33,114 nt of DNA from the NCBI GenBank assembly GCA_016788285.1, contig JAEUSW010000010.1, positions 1 through 33,114 of the forward strand. The letters are read 5' to 3'. This stretch comes from Flavobacteriales bacterium. GTDB taxonomy: Bacteria > Bacteroidota > Bacteroidia > Flavobacteriales_F > PHOS-HE28. Within the stretch, counting starts at the first letter, position 1, and each line of letters starts with the position of its first letter. The notes below the pieces were generated by a model. That model was given only the letters and a program-made list of their open reading frames with translations. It ran no database searches and had not been told where the DNA came from. The position numbers and the translations under genes were made by a program. Below are positions 6,394 through 29,251 of this stretch, one piece after another.

Positions 6394-7164
6394 ATGGCCG
6401 AGCGGAACGGGTTCCACGCCCTGGCGGTGGAGGCGGGTGAGCTGTCGATGTTCGCCGGTCGGTTCTTCCGCAACGCGTTCCACCGCCGGTTCGAATGGCG
6501 CGAACTGCTGCGGCAGGCGGCGATCAACGGGTCCGGATCGCTGCCGCTGGTGGGGATCACGGCCTTCATCATGGGCCTGGTGCTCACCGTGCAGAGCCGG
6601 CCCACGCTGGCGCGTTTCGGCGCGGAGAGCATGCTGCCGGCCATGGTGGCCATCAGCGTGGTGCGCGAGATCGCCCCGGTGATCACCGCGCTGATCTGCG
6701 CGGGCAAGATCGGCAGCAGCATGGGCGCCGAGCTGGGCAGCATGAAGGTCACCGAGCAGATCGATGCCATGGAGGTGAGCGGCACCAACCCCTTCCGCTA
6801 CCTGGCCGTCACCCGCATCTGGAGCACCACACTGATGCTGCCCGTGCTGGTGGTGCTGGCGGACGCCATCGCCATCTGGGCCAGCTGGGTGGGCGTCAAC
6901 ATCCGCGACACGGTGAGCTGGCCGCTCTTCTACCGGCAGGTGTTCGATTCACTGGAGTACGGCGATATCCTGCCGGCCTTCGCCAAGAGCTACTTCTTCG
7001 GCTTCGCCATCGGCGTGGTGGGTTGCTACAAGGGCTTCACCACGGCCAAGGGCACCGAGGGCGTGGGCCGCAGCGCGCACAGCGCCGTGGTGGTGGCCAG
7101 CCTGCTCATCTTCTTCCTCGACCTCATCGCCGTGCAGATCACCGATCTGCTCGGGCTCACCTGA
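6394..7164 (+). CDS. mlaE: MlaE-like ABC transporter permease
   Basis: This 256-residue protein is the membrane permease of an Mla-type lipid ABC transporter, which moves phospholipid between inner and outer membranes. It has the MlaE core: an N-terminal amphipathic segment, a helix near residues 50-70 (LVGITAFIMGLVLTVQS), the conserved block ALICAGKIGSSMGAELGSMK followed by TEQIDAMEV, and later helices at TLMLPVLVVLADAIAIW and SAVVVASLLIFFLDLIAVQ. I chose the ATG at 6394; the frame extends upstream, but the family begins near here and a possible promoter lies just before. The TGA overlaps the next ATG by one base (TGATG), so mlaE and mlaF are probably translationally coupled. Confidence 0.9.
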   Translation: MAERNGFHALAVEAGELSMFAGRFFRNAFHRRFEWRELLRQAAINGSGSLPLVGITAFIMGLVLTVQSRPTLARFGAESMLPAMVAISVVREIAPVITALICAGKIGSSMGAELGSMKVTEQIDAMEVSGTNPFRYLAVTRIWSTTLMLPVLVVLADAIAIWASWVGVNIRDTVSWPLFYRQVFDSLEYGDILPAFAKSYFFGFAIGVVGCYKGFTTAKGTEGVGRSAHSAVVVASLLIFFLDLIAVQITDLLGLT

Positions 7165-7922
7165 TGGCCACCACCGCGAGACCACCTGCCGAGCGTGTCA
7201 TCGCCGTGCGCGACCTGCACGTCGCGTTCGGCGCCAACCAGGTGCTGCGGGGCTTCGACCTCGACCTGTACCGCGGCGAGAACGTGATGGTGCTGGGCAA
7301 GAGCGGCAGCGGGAAGAGCGTGCTCATCAAGTGCATCGTGCGCCTGCTGCGTCCCGATGCCGGCCGCGTGGAGGTGCTGGGCCAGGATGTGCTGGCCCTC
7401 GACCAGGACCAGCTGGACCACCTGCGGGTGCGCATCGGCTTCCTGTTCCAGAGCAGTGCGCTGTACGACAGCATGACCGTGCAGGAGAACCTGGAGTTCC
7501 CGCTCCGGCGGCACTGGCTGGCCACCGCGCGTCAGGAGACCGAGGCGCTCGTGGACGAGGTGCTGGACGCCGTGGGCCTGGCGCACACGCGCGCCATGTA
7601 CCCCAGCGAGCTCAGCGGCGGCATGAAGCGGCGCATCGGGCTGGCGCGCACGCTGATCCTGAAGCCCGAGATCGTGCTCTACGATGAGCCCACCACGGGC
7701 CTGGACCCGATCACGGGGCGCGAGATCGTGGAGCTCATCCTCAAGCTCCAGCGCCAGTACAACACCAGCAGCATCATCATCTCGCACGACCTCAACGTGG
7801 CCAAGCTCGCCGCCAACCGCATCGCCCTGTTGCACGAGGGCCGCAACCGTGTGGAGGGCTCGTATGCCGACTTCCTGGCCAGCGACGACCCTGTTGTGAA
7901 GGAGTTCTTCATCTTCATGTGA
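7164..7922 (+). CDS. mlaF: MlaF-like ABC transporter ATP-binding protein
   Basis: This 252-residue ATPase is the partner of the MlaE-like permease. Motifs are Walker A GKSGSGKS (45-52), Q-loop Q96 in FLFQSSALYDSMTV, signature LSGGM (150-154), Walker B IVLYDEP (170-176), a D-loop TTGLDP and the switch histidine H208. FQSSALYDSMTVQEN and GGMKRRIGLART closely follow MlaF/Ttg2A proteins. The start overlaps the mlaE stop by one base and the MCE gene begins four bases after its stop, making a compact three-gene operon. No MlaB-like STAS gene or MlaC-like periplasmic carrier is next to it. Confidence 0.92.
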   Translation: MATTARPPAERVIAVRDLHVAFGANQVLRGFDLDLYRGENVMVLGKSGSGKSVLIKCIVRLLRPDAGRVEVLGQDVLALDQDQLDHLRVRIGFLFQSSALYDSMTVQENLEFPLRRHWLATARQETEALVDEVLDAVGLAHTRAMYPSELSGGMKRRIGLARTLILKPEIVLYDEPTTGLDPITGREIVELILKLQRQYNTSSIIISHDLNVAKLAANRIALLHEGRNRVEGSYADFLASDDPVVKEFFIFM

Positions 7923-7925
7923 ACC

Positions 7926-8909
7926 ATGCCAAGCACCTCCGGACGTTCCCTCCGCCTCGGCCTTTTCGTGCTCGCCGGCACCGCCGTGCTCGTCATCGGC
8001 CTCTACCTGCTGGGCAGCAAGCGCGACCTGTTCAGCCGGACCCTCACCGTGGAGGCCGTCTTCCAGCAGGTGGGCGGGCTGCGCCCGGGCAACAACGTGC
8101 GCTACATGGGCATCAACGTGGGCACGGTGCAGGACATCGCCATCACCAGTGACACCACGGTGCGGGTGCGGCTGGCGATCCGCGAGGAGGCGGCCGGCCA
8201 CATCCGCACCAACGCGGTGGCCACCGTGGGCACCGATGGCCTGATGGGCAACCGGCTGGTGAACCTGGCCCCGGGCGAGGGCGATGGCGGCCCGCTGGCC
8301 GATGGCACCGTGCTGCCGAGCAGCGTGCCCCTGGACACCGACCTGATGCTGCGCACGCTGGACCGCACCAACGCCAACCTCGCGGCCATCACCGACGATG
8401 TTCGCGAACTGGCCGCGCGGCTCAACACGAAGGGCAACGCCGTGGACCTGCTGGCGGACACGGTGCTCGCGCACGACCTGAGCGCGGCGCTGCGCGAGAT
8501 CCGCATCGCGGCCGAGCATGCGCGTTCGGCCACCGCAGGCATCGATGCGGTGCTGGGTGATGTGCGCGAGGGCAAGGGCGTCCTCGGCACCCTGGTGGGC
8601 GATCCCGCCAGCGAGCGGCAGGTGCGCGGTCTGCTGGGCAACCTGCGCCAGGTGAGCGATTCGCTGCACGCGGCCACCGAGGGCATCAACCGCTTCGCCG
8701 CCGCGCTCAACACCCCGGGCGGCATCGCGCATACGCTGACGGCGGACACCCTGCTCACCCAGGACCTGCGGCGCACGCTGTCGCGGCTCGACACCGGATC
8801 GGCGCTGCTCAACGAGGACCTGCGCGCACTGCAGCGCAACTGGTTCTTCCGCGGCTATTTCAAGGACAAGGAGAAGGTGCTGAAGCGCGGTACGCGGACG
8901 CGGCCGTGA
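7926..8909 (+). CDS. mlaD: MCE (MlaD-like) domain protein, inner-membrane anchored
   Basis: This 327-residue substrate-binding component of the Mla-type transporter has one membrane helix (about residues 10-29, LGLFVLAGTAVLVIGLYLLG) and a single MCE domain from roughly 38 to 120, including GGLRPGNNVRYMGINVG. In the family, MCE domains form hexameric rings that hold lipid. The rest is a long alpha-helical, coiled-coil-like tail (about 140-300) with repeated DTVLA/LREIR/LGNLRQVSDSLHAA segments, as in many periplasm-spanning MCE proteins. The tail ends in a basic stretch (KDKEKVLKRGTRTRP). It follows mlaF by three bases and is convergent with the DUF4907-like gene, leaving only 13 bases between stops. 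Confidence 0.88.
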   Translation: MPSTSGRSLRLGLFVLAGTAVLVIGLYLLGSKRDLFSRTLTVEAVFQQVGGLRPGNNVRYMGINVGTVQDIAITSDTTVRVRLAIREEAAGHIRTNAVATVGTDGLMGNRLVNLAPGEGDGGPLADGTVLPSSVPLDTDLMLRTLDRTNANLAAITDDVRELAARLNTKGNAVDLLADTVLAHDLSAALREIRIAAEHARSATAGIDAVLGDVREGKGVLGTLVGDPASERQVRGLLGNLRQVSDSLHAATEGINRFAAALNTPGGIAHTLTADTLLTQDLRRTLSRLDTGSALLNEDLRALQRNWFFRGYFKDKEKVLKRGTRTRP

Positions 8910-23818: not shown

Positions 23819-24412
23819 ATGAGCCCCTTCGCCTGGAGCCTGCTGGAAGCCGTGGCCGCCGCGGGCAACCTGGCCTACACGGTGCTCATGCTCTACGAGC
23901 GGCGCATCGGCTGGCTCTTCGGCATCGCGGCGTCGGCCCTGGGCATCGCGCTCTTCCTGCACCAGCAGGTGTACGCGCAGGTGGCGCTGAACGGCGTGTA
24001 CGTGATCATGGGCGCCTACGGCTGGTGGTCGTGGGGCCGCGGCCCGGGGGCCGAGCTGCCCATCGTCCGCCGCGGGGCCGTCTTCCACGCGACCGTCATC
24101 GCATCGGGACTGGCGGGCACCGTGGTGCTGGCGCTGCTGCTGCGCTGGCTTCCGGATGCGCAGCATGTGGCGATGGACGGCTTCGCCACGGCCTTCAGCC
24201 TGCTGGCCACCTGGATGCTGGCGCGCAAGGTGCTGGAGAACTGGGCCTACTGGATCGTGGCCGACGCCGTGGCCATCGCGCTCTTCGCCCTGCTCGGGCT
24301 GTGGTGGTACGTGGGCCTGTATGCGGTGTACGTGGTGCTCTCGGCCTCGGCGCTGCGACGCTGGCATCGGCAATGGCAGGAGGCACGGCCACCCGCCCGG
24401 GGCCCGGCCTGA
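23819..24412 (+). CDS. pnuC: PnuC-family nicotinamide riboside (or related vitamin) transporter
   Basis: This 197-residue membrane protein has about seven helices. Family motifs are GWWSWGRG (68-75) and TWMLARKVLENWAYWIVAD (131-149); NWxYWxxxD is a PnuC signature. PnuC proteins carry nicotinamide riboside by facilitated diffusion, while the Bacteroidota paralogue PnuT carries thiamine and is normally under a TPP riboswitch. No riboswitch lies upstream here, and a NadR-like kinase is encoded at 29266, so nicotinamide riboside is the better guess. It follows the LRR gene by 13 bases and is convergent with the carotenoid fusion gene, eight bases away. Confidence 0.87.
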   Translation: MSPFAWSLLEAVAAAGNLAYTVLMLYERRIGWLFGIAASALGIALFLHQQVYAQVALNGVYVIMGAYGWWSWGRGPGAELPIVRRGAVFHATVIASGLAGTVVLALLLRWLPDAQHVAMDGFATAFSLLATWMLARKVLENWAYWIVADAVAIALFALLGLWWYVGLYAVYVVLSASALRRWHRQWQEARPPARGPA

Positions 24413-24420
24413 CCGATGGC

Positions 24421-25800
24421 TCAGTCCGCGCCCCGGCCGGGCACGGGCGGCGGCAGGTCGCCGTGCGCGCGCTGCAGCGGCCGCTCGTAGAAGGTGACGG
24501 TGAGCAGCAGGAAGAACAGCAGGTACATGCTGTCCTCCAGCGGGATGGTGCCCACGCGGATGCCCAGGTTCTCGGCGTCGTTGTACCACACCACCGGTTC
24601 ATCCAGCAGCGTGCCGGTGAGGATGCCGTTGACCAGCACGAAGGGGACCAGGTTCACCGCATAGGCCAGCAGAAAGCGGCCCAGGTAGGGGCTGCGCAGC
24701 ACGAACACATGCACGGCCAGCAGGGCGGCGGTGCACAGGAAGGTGATCGCGGTGTAGATGCGGTCGATGTGGACGCCCCCCACCGCGGTGAGCACCACGA
24801 TGAGGGCGATGGCCAGCGGACGGGCCGCGCGCCCCAGCACGTCGCGGCGCACGAAGTAGCGCATCACCTCGTAGATGAAGGTGCAGGAATAGGGCACCAC
24901 CAGGAAGAAGAGCCACTCCTCGATGGGCAGGCCGGCGATGTGCGGCCCGGTGAGGTAGCGCGGGTTGAAGCCCCACACGCCGGTGGCCGTGAAGATGGCG
25001 TCCCACGCGATGAAGGTGGCGGCCATCACGGCCGTGCCGGTGAACAGGCCGGGCCATTTGCGCCAGTACCGCACGCGGGGCTCGAAGCTGCGCAGCAGCG
25101 GGAAGCTCAGCGTGAAGAGGTCGAGCGCCAGATAGGTGTAGGCCTCGCGGCCCTGCAGCGCACCGATGCCGATGATGCCCGCGAAGAAGAAGAGCTGCGC
25201 GCCCAGCACCACGGGGGCCAGCGGGTTCGTGCGCTTCACCGGCAGCGTGAAGTAGGCGGCGAAGAAGACCGCGCTCACCGCGCCCCAGGCGATGTAGTTG
25301 CGCATGGGCACCACACCGCCGTCCCAGCTCCAGAAGCCCAGCTGCATGGCCACGGGCTCGATCACCAGGTCCACGCCCACCATCACCAGGGAGGCCACGG
25401 TGATGCGCGCCCAGGTGGGCAGGGCCACCCCGGCGATCAGCGGACCGATGCACAGCACGAGCAGCAGCCAGTTGACGCCGATCATCAGCGGTGTGTCCCA
25501 GAGCTTCACCCCCAGGGCATCGCCGTAGTGGTAGTGCCCGAAGATGACCCCGGTGCGCACGCCCGCCATCTCCACCAGGAAGCCCAGCACGAGCACGCCC
25601 ACCGCGAACGCCAAGGTGAGCGCATCGGGGCGGGTGTGCAGCAGAAGCAGCAGGGCGATGATCAGCAGCGTCACCGGGGTGAGCGGCACCAGGTGCCCGG
25701 CCCACGGGCTGGCGAGGCCGGCCAGGCCCACGGACTGCAGCACCACGATGATGAAGGTGGCGCGTCCTTCATCCAGGGTCCGGAGGAGGCGCTGCATCAT
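24421..25800 (-). CDS. CruF-like carotenoid hydratase fused to a CrtYcd-type lycopene cyclase
   Basis: This is a 459-residue, many-helix membrane protein with two enzyme modules. Residues 1-215 match CruF (DUF422), which hydrates the 1',2' double bond of a carotenoid end: GHYHYGDALGVKLWDTPLM (88-106), then DLVIEPVAMQLGFWSWDGG. Residues 217-442 match both halves of the heterodimeric CrtYc/CrtYd cyclase: GLPIEEWLFFLVVPYSCTF (about 290-308) and the second-half equivalent IPLEDSMYLLFF (419-430). The tail is Pro/Gly-rich. The ATG overlaps the upstream desaturase stop by four bases. The protein could both cyclise one end of lycopene and hydroxylate the other. Family calls are firm, the combined activity is inference. 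Confidence 0.85.
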   Translation of the reverse strand: MMQRLLRTLDEGRATFIIVVLQSVGLAGLASPWAGHLVPLTPVTLLIIALLLLLHTRPDALTLAFAVGVLVLGFLVEMAGVRTGVIFGHYHYGDALGVKLWDTPLMIGVNWLLLVLCIGPLIAGVALPTWARITVASLVMVGVDLVIEPVAMQLGFWSWDGGVVPMRNYIAWGAVSAVFFAAYFTLPVKRTNPLAPVVLGAQLFFFAGIIGIGALQGREAYTYLALDLFTLSFPLLRSFEPRVRYWRKWPGLFTGTAVMAATFIAWDAIFTATGVWGFNPRYLTGPHIAGLPIEEWLFFLVVPYSCTFIYEVMRYFVRRDVLGRAARPLAIALIVVLTAVGGVHIDRIYTAITFLCTAALLAVHVFVLRSPYLGRFLLAYAVNLVPFVLVNGILTGTLLDEPVVWYNDAENLGIRVGTIPLEDSMYLLFFLLLTVTFYERPLQRAHGDLPPPVPGRGAD

Positions 25801-27278
25801 GCGAGGGGCAGGGCTTCGGTGGCGATGCGGGCGCTCAACAGGCTCAGCGGGATGCCGCCGCCAGGGTGCACGCTGCCACCGCAGAAGTGAAGGCCGCGCA
25901 CCGTGGGATGGTCGTTGGGGTGGCGCAGGAAGGCCGCCCACGGCGTGTTGCTGCTGGTGCCGTAGATGGAGCCCTGGTGGCTGAAGGTGGCGGCCTCGAT
26001 GCCGGCGGGGTCCAGCACCTCCTCCACGGCGATCCGCGGCGCCAGGTCCACGCCCAGGGTGCGGCGCACCTTGTCCAGCACCGTGCGCCGCGCGCGCGCC
26101 ACCAGGGCGTCACGGTCCTGTCCGATGTGGCGCGGGGCGTTGATCATCACGAACCAGTTCTCGCAGCCGGGCGGCGCGTCTTCGGGGTCCTCCTTGCTGG
26201 TGATGTTGATGTACACCGTGGGGTCGTCGCCCAGGTCCAGCGTGTCGAACAGGTGGTGGAACTCAGCGCGGTAGTCCCGGCTGAAGAGGATGTTGTGCAG
26301 GCCCAGCTCGGGGAAGCCGCGGTCCACGCCCCAGTAGAAGACCAGCGCCGAGCTGCTCCGCTCCTGCCGCAGGGTGCGCTCCGGTGCGGGCAGGTCGGGC
26401 ATCAGCCTGCGGTAGGCCGGCTCCACGTCCATGTTGCACAGCACGGCATCGGCGTCCACGTCGGTCCCGTTCACCCGTACGCCCGCCACCCGTCGCCGGT
26501 CCGCGCTGAAGCGGATGCGCTCCACCGGCGCGCCGAAGTGGTACTGCACACCGAGCTCCGTGCCCAGGCCGTGCAACGCGTGCACGATGCGGCGCATGCC
26601 GCCCACCGCGTGGTAGGCGCCCCGGCCGTGCTCCAATCCGGGGATCATGCGCATGATCCCCGGGCTGCGGTGCGGATCGCTCCCGTTGTAGGTGGCGTAG
26701 CGGTCGAAGAGCTGCACGGCCTTGGGGTGGCGGAGGGCGCGGGTGTTCACGTCGTGCAGGCTGCCGAAGAGCTCCCGTGGACGTGCGGCCAGCAGGGCTT
26801 GCGACACGCCGCCGTTCCACAGGGTGCTCCAGCGGTGCAGCGAGTGCTCCAGGAAGGTGCGGCCCGTGCGGTCGAGCAGGGTGGAGGCCCGGTGCAGGTA
26901 CGCCCGGGTGGTCGCGCGGGGAACCTCCAGCACGCGTTCCAGCTCCTCCGCCAGGCGCTCCGGATCGGTCCAGCCCGTCACATGGGTGCCGTCCTCCCAC
27001 CAGTAGCGGAAGGCGACCTCCAAGGGGCGGTAGCTGAAGTGCGGGGCCATGGGCCGGCCGGCCAGGGTGAAGAGCTCCTCCACCAGATGGGGCAGGGTGA
27101 AGAGCGAGGGCCCCTTGTCGAAGCGGAAGCCGCCGAGCCGCAGCTCGGCCAGCTTGCCACCGGGCGTGGCGGCGGCCTCATAGGCGTCCACGCGGTAGCC
27201 CTTCACCGCCAGCCGGACCGCGGCGGCCAGCCCGGCCACGCCGGTGCCGATCACGACGGCGCGCGCAGGCTTCCCCAT
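25797..27278 (-). CDS. crtD: CrtI-family carotenoid desaturase, probably 1-hydroxycarotenoid 3,4-desaturase (CrtD)
   Basis: This 493-residue flavoprotein desaturates carotenoids. The N-terminal FAD fold is VIGTGVAGLAAAVRLA (9-24), with E34 and PGGKL (39-43); the C-terminal motif is FCGGSVHPGGGIPLSLLSA. FDKGPSLFTLPHLVEELF and LHNILFSRDYRAEF resemble what I recall of Bacteroidota CrtD (1-hydroxycarotenoid 3,4-desaturase) rather than their CrtI, which more often reads GPSWYWMPDVF. Overlap with a CruF-cyclase gene supports CrtD, because CruF and CrtD act in sequence. A CrtI role cannot be excluded. The ATG at 27278 lies five bases after TTCCTTTG. No crtB is in the window. Confidence 0.85.
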   Translation of the reverse strand: MGKPARAVVIGTGVAGLAAAVRLAVKGYRVDAYEAAATPGGKLAELRLGGFRFDKGPSLFTLPHLVEELFTLAGRPMAPHFSYRPLEVAFRYWWEDGTHVTGWTDPERLAEELERVLEVPRATTRAYLHRASTLLDRTGRTFLEHSLHRWSTLWNGGVSQALLAARPRELFGSLHDVNTRALRHPKAVQLFDRYATYNGSDPHRSPGIMRMIPGLEHGRGAYHAVGGMRRIVHALHGLGTELGVQYHFGAPVERIRFSADRRRVAGVRVNGTDVDADAVLCNMDVEPAYRRLMPDLPAPERTLRQERSSSALVFYWGVDRGFPELGLHNILFSRDYRAEFHHLFDTLDLGDDPTVYINITSKEDPEDAPPGCENWFVMINAPRHIGQDRDALVARARRTVLDKVRRTLGVDLAPRIAVEEVLDPAGIEAATFSHQGSIYGTSSNTPWAAFLRHPNDHPTVRGLHFCGGSVHPGGGIPLSLLSARIATEALPLA

Positions 27279-27342: not shown

Positions 27343-29175
27343 TCAGCGCTTGGTGAACGGCGCCGGTCGCCACCGGCCATCGGTGCCCACGCTCAACCAG
27401 TACGCGCCGGGCGTCAGGGCATGCACATCGATGCGTTGGCGATCGCCACCCGTGGCCGTGTGGTCCTGCACCACGCGACCGGCGGCATCGGTGATGCGGA
27501 GCACGGTGCCGGTCCCCACGGCGGAGGGCAGCGACACCTCCAAGGTGGCGTCGGCCGGCACGGGGAAGAGCCCGGGCGTCGGGCGTTCGTCATCCGGCAG
27601 CCCCACGCTGAGGTCGGTGATGGCCACGTGGGCGTGCACCATCGCGAAGTCGCCGCCCATCACCAGCGCGTTGCCCAGGAGGGCGACCGCATGCACGGGT
27701 GCGTCCAGCCAGGCCATCGGTTCGGCGGCATCGGGCGTGCCGTGGAAGCGGCCGATGTGGTTGCCGTCCGTCATCATCTGGTAGATGGTGAAGTCGCCGC
27801 CGAAGTAGAGGGTGCCGCCGTGGTGCGCGAGCGAGCTGATGTACGTGGGGCCGAGGCCGGCCGGCATGTACAGGTCGTGCCCGGGAAGCAGGTGCTCCCA
27901 CGCGGTGGCGCCGGAGGCCAGGCGGGCCAGGCCGTAGGTGGGTACGATGTTCGCCCAGAGGTCGCCCGCGGCGTACAAGGTGTCGTTCGCGCTCAACAGC
28001 GCACGCACCGGCGCGTCCAGCCCGATGGCCAGGTTCTGCCAGTCGCTGCTGCCGATGGTGGCGCAATGCATCAGCACCGGCTCGATCGGTGCCTCCAGCG
28101 TGGTGAAGGCGCCGCCGGCCACCAGTTGACCGTTGTGCGTGGCCAGGGCCATCACGGTGGCGTCGAAGGGGCTGCCCACCTGCTCCCACATACCGTTCAC
28201 GAGGCGCTTCACCACATCATCGGTGCCCGCGAACCCGCTCGCCTCGCCCGCGGCGTGCAGCACGCCGTTGTGCACGTGCAGCGCGTGGGTGCGCGGGGCC
28301 ATGCCCGGGAACACGTTCGTGTACGACCAGCTGCTCCCGTTCCACACGGCCAGGTCGGCCGCCTCGTTCTCGAAGGTGCCGCCCAGGTAGATGGATCCGT
28401 TGTGCGCGATGGCGCAGCTGGCCGCCCCGCTCACCCCGTTGCCCAGCGCGCTGTAGCTGCTCCCGTTCCACACCGCCACATGCGTGGCCGTGGTGCCGCC
28501 CGCGGTGGTGAAGGCACCGGCCACCAGCAGATCGCCGTTGCCCAGTGCGAGAAGGGCCGTCACGCTGCTGTCCGTGCCCGTGCCCAGGGTGTTCCACGGC
28601 ACGCTGGGCGGATAGCCCGGCTGGATCCACGCCAGCTCATCGGCGCTGAAGCCATGGTCCGCCGCCCAGTCGGCGATGGGTGCGCCGAGCGACGGCGACC
28701 GCACGAGATCGGCCACGTAGGCCAGCTCCTGCTCGTCATCGATGCGTTCGGCCAGCGCGCGATGACCGCTCTCGATCATCAGCTGACCCACCGCGCAGGC
28801 CGTGTGGTGCGGATCGATGAACACCGGGTTGCGGTACGGGAGCACATGGTTCTGCGGAAAGGTGCGGCGCTCGGCGTACGCGCCCAGCGCGTCGAGCAGG
28901 CGATGACGCTCCTCCGCCTGCTCCGCGGAAAGCCCCTCCGGTGCGCGGGAGACGAGCTGTTCGCGCACCAGGCGCAGGTGCGCGGCGATGCGCTCGGCCT
29001 CGCTCCGGAAGGACACGACCGCATCACCGCCTTCGGGCGAAGGGTCCATCACCGCCCATTGGCGGTTCACTTCCAGCAGGTGCGTGCGCAAGGGGGCGCT
29101 GTGCTGCGGGGCCAGCTGCGCGTGCAGCGCGAGGGTGCCCAGCAGGAAGGTCGGGAGTATGCAGGTCCTGTTCAT
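27343..29175 (-). CDS. Secreted propeller protein with conserved N-terminal domain and T9SS sorting domain
   Basis: This protein has 610 residues and a signal peptide (1-20, LPTFLLGTLALHAQ). Residues 25-190 form a helical domain I have seen in other Flavobacteriales surface proteins but cannot name: TFPQN (105-109), R115, PVFIDPHHTACAVGQLM (117-133), ADW (168-170) and ELAWIQPGYPP (180-190). Next come about six propeller units (VAVWNGSSYSALGNGVSG; LYFGGDFTIYQ) like those of the gene at 17845. The sorting domain is GLFPVPADATLEVSL, VLRITDAAGRVVQD, LTPGAYWLSVGTDG and a final FTKR. The ATG at 29175 gives the signal peptide. Function unknown; surface binding is likely. Confidence 0.85.
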   Translation of the reverse strand: MNRTCILPTFLLGTLALHAQLAPQHSAPLRTHLLEVNRQWAVMDPSPEGGDAVVSFRSEAERIAAHLRLVREQLVSRAPEGLSAEQAEERHRLLDALGAYAERRTFPQNHVLPYRNPVFIDPHHTACAVGQLMIESGHRALAERIDDEQELAYVADLVRSPSLGAPIADWAADHGFSADELAWIQPGYPPSVPWNTLGTGTDSSVTALLALGNGDLLVAGAFTTAGGTTATHVAVWNGSSYSALGNGVSGAASCAIAHNGSIYLGGTFENEAADLAVWNGSSWSYTNVFPGMAPRTHALHVHNGVLHAAGEASGFAGTDDVVKRLVNGMWEQVGSPFDATVMALATHNGQLVAGGAFTTLEAPIEPVLMHCATIGSSDWQNLAIGLDAPVRALLSANDTLYAAGDLWANIVPTYGLARLASGATAWEHLLPGHDLYMPAGLGPTYISSLAHHGGTLYFGGDFTIYQMMTDGNHIGRFHGTPDAAEPMAWLDAPVHAVALLGNALVMGGDFAMVHAHVAITDLSVGLPDDERPTPGLFPVPADATLEVSLPSAVGTGTVLRITDAAGRVVQDHTATGGDRQRIDVHALTPGAYWLSVGTDGRWRPAPFTKR

Positions 29176-29251
29176 GATCGTTCGGCTTGGTCCGTGTTGC
29201 CATGTAGAGGAGGACGCGCTCCGCATCGCTGCCTGCGCGGTGATGGACCGT

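Follow-up and report, generated by a model that had tools for sequence, protein, structure and literature searches.

Organization of the crtD-cruF::crtYcd locus

The window, that is the whole stretch of 33,114 nucleotides that was analysed, is one entire contig of the source genome, a Flavobacteriales bacterium (G000). Two overlapping genes occupy positions 24421-27278 of its minus strand, as the first-pass annotation had claimed. Both frames were found at these coordinates, and they share an ATGA overlap (25797-25800, minus strand) formed by the start of the downstream gene and the stop of the upstream one. The upstream gene of this operon (25797-27278, minus strand) is crtD, which codes for a 1-hydroxycarotenoid 3,4-desaturase of 493 aa. 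The downstream gene (24421-25800, minus strand) is a cruF::crtYcd fusion. It is read in one uninterrupted frame of 459 aa, stop-free from residue 1 to residue 459, and its product contains one PF04240 domain, two PF18916 domains and 14 predicted transmembrane helices, seven in each half. The N-terminal half (residues 1-215; 25156-25800, minus strand) is of the CruF carotenoid 1,2-hydratase type, and the C-terminal half (residues 217-444; 24469-25152, minus strand) comprises the two repeats of a CrtYcd-type lycopene beta-cyclase. The junction lies within codons 206-230 (25111-25185, minus strand).

Two genes outside the pathway border the locus. Downstream, pnuC (23819-24412, plus strand; TIGR01528, 59.6 bits for a cut-off of 42.45) is convergent with the fusion gene; it adjoins the cyclase gene in relatives and serves as a syntenic marker. 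The gene upstream of crtD (27343-29226, minus strand) keeps its position in the genus, as seen by tblastn synteny.

Domain composition of the two proteins

Profile searches recovered both modules that had been proposed for the fused protein, a CruF-like hydratase and a two-part CrtYcd cyclase. PF04240 matches residues 49-212 with 89.1 bits for a cut-off of 25. PF18916 matches twice, the better match covering residues 346-439 with 129.6 bits for a cut-off of 27, and the TIGR03462 lycopene cyclase domain is also found twice, the better match covering residues 221-310 with 102.5 bits for a cut-off of 39.4. The protein thus carries the two repeats (PF18916/TIGR03462) that characterize a CrtYcd lycopene cyclase. 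The PF00494 domain expected of a bifunctional CrtYB-type cyclase/phytoene synthase was not found in the fusion by the Pfam search, which returned PF04240 and PF18916 only. The cyclase half keeps the PxEE/PxED and VVWYNDAEN motifs and is expected to be active as a lycopene cyclase. The proposed likeness of the upstream enzyme to CrtD also held: it scores 567.8 bits against NF042421, for an equivalog cut-off of 500, and among solved structures its closest match by sequence is 4rep, a gamma-carotene desaturase (499 bits).

The CruF half retains all of the columns that are invariant in the CruF alignment (25/25). However, it falls below the cut-offs of the three curated CruF equivalogs (62 vs 154.7 bits for TIGR03460, 42.3 vs 300 for NF041333 and 31.7 vs 400 for NF045693). 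We therefore classify it as a PF04240 protein with an expected CruF-like function, an assignment that rests on PF04240, on its context and on the homologue from Nonlabens. The latter, together with the linkage to crtD, suggests that this half acts as a hydratase.

Conservation of the fused frame

A survey for the same fusion found it in three further, separately assembled genomes of the genus, G028, G041 and G014, whose proteins are respectively 94, 94 and 74% identical to that of the window. Over linker codons 206-230, G000 and G041 differ by 7 synonymous and 0 nonsynonymous substitutions, and G028 and G041 by 6 synonymous and 0 nonsynonymous substitutions. This conservation of the linker amino acids in two genome pairs shows that the junction is neither a frameshift nor an assembly joint, an artefact that would have had to fall between residues 215 and 217. 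Apart from the draft status of the assemblies, nothing speaks for a sequencing or assembly error joining two frames; the identical frame in four assemblies and the purely synonymous linker changes in both comparisons refute it, and its probability is practically nil. Finally, dN/dS is about 0.11-0.17 across both halves when G000 is compared with its two nearest relatives, and about 0.16 for the CruF half. These values and the codon comparison indicate that both halves and the linker are under purifying selection.

Origin of the fusion within the genus

PF04240 was found in 11 of the 45 genomes of the genus and the cyclase in 31; an order-wide survey and the family survey yielded an identical set of 45 genomes. 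The gene order crtD-cruF-crtYcd is constant in all 11 PF04240 genomes. Seven of them carry cruF and crtYcd as distinct genes with a one-base overlap (TGATG or TAATG), and the other four carry the fusion. From the conserved Ala-Gly codons to the YYL/TYL motif of the cyclase, 53 nt were counted in split genes and 54 nt in fused ones, a net difference of +1. The fused frame of G014 retains the old start codon (GGC ATG GAA CGC TTC) where the window junction reads GGC CGC GAG GCC TAC. In the cyclase tree, the fused genomes fall in one clade (support 98/99), sister to the split ones. The tree and the internal Met of G014 point to the split state as ancestral. The fusion thus appears to have arisen from neighbouring cruF and crtYcd genes with a TGATG-type stop/start overlap, closed by the net insertion of one base to give a single frame.

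The former start codon that G014 retains in frame at its junction is compatible with the making of two proteins from one gene, either by internal initiation or by proteolysis of the linker, in which case the fusion would have no consequence at the protein level. In the window clade, however, the stretch between codons 198 and 243 is free of in-frame ATG, GTG and TTG, which rules out a separate start of the cyclase at its former position. Moreover, the linker is short and lies between two predicted membrane helices. We regard separate proteins as highly improbable.

Two further genomes, G005 and G006, are nested in the fused clade and have neither PF04240 nor CrtD of the P0002 type. Their cyclase retains the fusion linker (RG-E before TYLALDL) behind a new start and helix. 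These cyclases (L200:41-940 and L201:2075-2968) appear as a natural reversal of the fusion, in which crtD and CruF were lost and the linker was kept. The syntenic order at the locus is flanking gene, crtD, cruF, crtYcd, pnuC and an LRR gene. The crtD-cruF segment is absent between the flanking gene and crtYcd in G006, and also in G004 and G008, on another branch of the tree. At this one locus, the genus therefore displays the split state, the fused state and secondary deletion. Since crtD and CruF were lost in some relatives, their product is not essential in the genus.

Predicted pathway and product

As had been observed beforehand, the window contains neither crtB nor a ketolase gene. On another contig of the source genome, crtI, crtB and idi lie in one cluster, followed by photolyase-like, Polyketide_cyc2-like and crtZ-like genes. 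The crtZ-like gene has no CrtZ match in Pfam or NCBIfam. Its protein is homologous to that of a small gene immediately preceding crtYcd in dozens of Bacteroidota and has histidine motifs, and it is on this homology and these motifs that its identification rests. With crtZ assigned by homology, the source genome holds the whole saproxanthin gene set (crtB, crtI, crtYcd, cruF, crtD and crtZ).

In E. coli, the CrtY of Nonlabens alone converts lycopene mainly to beta-carotene, and its CruF alone yields hydroxy- and dihydroxylycopene (PMC11855829). Together, the two enzymes give mainly 1'-hydroxy-gamma-carotene, which CrtD then converts to 1'-hydroxytorulene (PMC11855829). At the window locus, lycopene would receive a beta ring at one end from the cyclase half and would be hydrated at C-1',2' of the opposite end by the CruF half, with CrtD performing the 3',4'-desaturation. 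This direction of the pathway (one ring, a 1'-hydroxyl and 3',4'-desaturation), already put forward in the first-pass annotation, is supported by the profiles, the genome context and the co-occurrence of CrtD with CruF. Indeed, the distribution of CrtD of the P0002 type (at least 62% identity) coincides with that of CruF, all 11 CruF genomes having it and 0 of the 34 others of the genus. This co-occurrence counts as one correlated unit and not as 45 independent tests because these are operon genes in related genomes. The initial proposal of a saproxanthin/myxol-type product stands as to domain identities and pathway direction, and the addition of CrtZ points to saproxanthin within it. The predicted product is thus saproxanthin or a near relative, with CrtZ supplied from elsewhere in the genome.

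Loss of hydration by the CruF half would lead to a different pigment: the protein would then be effectively a cyclase, and the strain would make gamma-carotene, beta-carotene or zeaxanthin. The scores below every CruF equivalog cut-off and the deletion of the CruF half in two members of the clade lean that way. They are opposed by the retention of all invariant CruF columns, by the purifying selection on this half, and by the fact that CrtD, whose Nonlabens counterpart uses the hydrated product as substrate (PMC11855829), is kept and lost together with the CruF half. An inactive hydratase is accordingly given very little credence, and we retain the three-step pathway.

The source genome carries a second CrtD-like gene, 45% identical to P0002 and scoring 479.6 bits, just below the CrtD cut-off, which is oriented divergently to a second CrtZ-like gene. 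The pair lies on contig C41 (L098:6609-7130, minus strand, and 7119-8615, plus strand). This CrtD-like paralogue occurs in the fused clade, in the CruF-less G005 and G006, and in G039. No rhodopsin gene, a possible partner of the pigment, was found in any genome with the fusion, the source genome included. Within the genus, microbial rhodopsin genes are confined to two split-gene species (G043:C13:35612-36268 and G036:C220:4298-4969); the remaining 43 genomes lack them.

Topology and structure models

The two halves were modelled apart with AlphaFold2 because alignments of mixed halves misplaced the CruF rows. Both models show seven long helices, with pLDDT values of 90.3 for CruF and 92.3 for CrtYcd. 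Over the alignments, the mean number of Lys and Arg per CruF protein is 7.8 on the N-terminal side of the membrane vs 2.2 on the other, and the corresponding values per CrtYcd protein are 3.4 and 9.8. The positive-inside rule thus predicts an N-in/C-out orientation for CruF and N-out/C-in for CrtYcd. With the C-terminus of CruF and the N-terminus of CrtYcd both outside, the two can be joined in this order without an additional helix.

The models place the conserved loops of both halves (FGxYxYG and PxxNY in CruF, LPxEE and VVWYNDAENxGIRxxTIPxED in the cyclase) on what is predicted to be the same outer face. As a membrane-spanning lycopene exposes one end there, channelling would need the molecule to be turned or to lie differently, and a membrane-spanning carotenoid would probably have to turn round between the two steps. 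The first-pass annotation had read the fusion as a sign that a single membrane protein acts on both ends of one molecule. That the 14-helix enzyme binds one lycopene once, treats one end with each half and releases the asymmetric product only is an unlikely scheme. If it were true, the recurrent CruF fusions would mark selection for such coupling.

Sequence comparison found no solved relative of either half, and a search of solved structures with both half models gave no significant match for either. The best solved fold match of the CruF half is weak: the mycobacterial Insig homologue MvINS, with a probability of 0.98, an E value of 0.21 and TM scores of 0.38-0.44. Cross-hits obtained with phmmer and a MAFFT alignment that drew CruF onto the cyclase raised the question of a common ancestry of CruF and CrtYcd, which we do not claim. 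Comparison of the two profiles was non-significant (probability 1.2%, E value 0.044).

Recurrence of CruF fusions

The search was extended to two wider samples, in which PF04240 was present in 166 of 395 genomes class-wide and in 107 of 395 phylum-wide. The listed PF04240 matches were sorted by the length of their open frame and the long ones were inspected. Since the survey is a sample, the number of fusion events is a minimum. A second CruF-CrtYcd fusion was found in G173 and its congener G432, which belong to another family and are placed apart from the window clade in the CruF tree. This position indicates that the CruF-CrtYcd fusion arose independently at least twice. The fusion is confirmed as real, conserved and convergent. 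In G428, a congener of these two genomes, cruF and crtYcd lie in the same frame, with one TAG and a few codons between them (L247:4107-5441); this arrangement is possibly a pre-fusion state or a case of readthrough.

Other partners were also found. CruF is fused to CrtZ in UBA10329, one genome only (L016:5950-7056, same as L171; CruF at residues 16-208 and CrtZ at 218-366), and this gene overlaps crtYcd at 7041-7760. The reverse fusion CrtB-CruF occurs in five genomes of family f43 (L189:4752-6344, L190, L191, L192 and L193), where it adjoins two CrtI-family genes. Fusions with CruF first and CrtB second occur in several families outside the class (L248-L251 and L256-L259), including Rhodothermus marinus DSM 4252 (G451). 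The R. marinus protein (L260:4097-5857) has 586 aa, with PF04240 at residues 63-262 and PF00494 at 302-560. A single CruF-CrtB gene of R. marinus was reportedly described in 2020 by Kristjansdottir and colleagues in Metab Eng Commun. An earlier study of 2017 reported no CrtC or CruF homologue for the R. marinus genome (PMC5822342). Long frames in L196, L198 and L199 resembled fusions and were set aside, as they seem to contain upstream open frame only. Taken together, the sampled sequences point to CruF as a repeated fusion partner, joined twice to CrtYcd, once to CrtZ, and to CrtB in both orders.

Significance of the fusion

The separate Nonlabens enzymes already yield mainly the asymmetric product, and the fusion is therefore not required for its formation. 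The fusion may be a neutral accident, in which translationally coupled neighbours lost the stop codon between them and each half works on its own, with product and flux unchanged. This account rivals the benefit of the fusion and not the identity of the enzymes, and we hold it to be a substantial possibility. It agrees with the low mutational cost of the fusion (a net single base in the window clade, one stop codon in the second case), with the separation of cruF and crtYcd in most CruF genomes, and with the predominance of 1'-hydroxy-gamma-carotene when separate Nonlabens enzymes are used (PMC11855829). However, it accounts less readily for the recurrence of CruF fusions across lineages and for the complete lack of amino-acid changes in the linker among the three closest species.

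Our preferred reading, which we consider probable, is that of a two-gene operon encoding CrtD and a bifunctional hydratase-cyclase membrane enzyme, fused from an overlapping pair of genes and beneficial through a fixed ratio of its activities. A 1:1 tie of two enzymes that compete for the ends of lycopene would favour the asymmetric product. We infer that this fixed 1:1 ratio is the most likely benefit of the fusion, and it is a simpler advantage than channelling.

Monocyclic carotenoids require that one end be cyclised and the other not, and the enzymes alone treat both ends. Fused relatives, split relatives and those with crtD and the hydratase deleted form a natural series, in which the control of this asymmetry and the reason for enzyme fusion can be tested. 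The fusion is also a ready-made construct for the engineering of saproxanthin-type pigments, and it records how a net change of one base can turn overlapping genes into a single fused membrane protein.

Comparison with known systems

Fusions of carotenoid enzymes, including those of CruF, are already known. For the pair of CruF and CrtYcd we found no report in the literature, in a search limited to open-licence papers. The CruF-CrtB protein of Rhodothermus marinus resembles that of the window in having CruF in one frame with another enzyme of the same carotenoid pathway. However, its partner is phytoene synthase, which catalyses an early step, whereas the cyclase joined to CruF here competes with it for the ends of the same substrate. 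In the fungal CrtYB-type fusions, a CrtYcd-type cyclase is likewise joined to another carotenoid enzyme, but this is again phytoene synthase, and there is no hydratase (PMC2889829). The Algoriphagus genes for flexixanthin include cruF, crtD and crtYcd for a monocyclic 1'-hydroxycarotenoid, and the so-called fusion-type cyclase of this organism joins CrtYc and CrtYd, as does the cyclase described here (Tao et al. 2006; PMC10784355). Unlike at the window locus, its CruF (221 aa) has a gene of its own, and there is a ketolase gene, crtW (Tao et al. 2006; PMC10784355). Finally, the myxol cluster of Nonlabens spongiae contains the same enzyme families along with crtD, crtZ, crtB and crtI, with activities demonstrated in E. 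coli, but there cruF and crtY are separate genes encoding separate proteins, and the cluster includes crtA-OH for the 2'-hydroxyl (PMC11855829).
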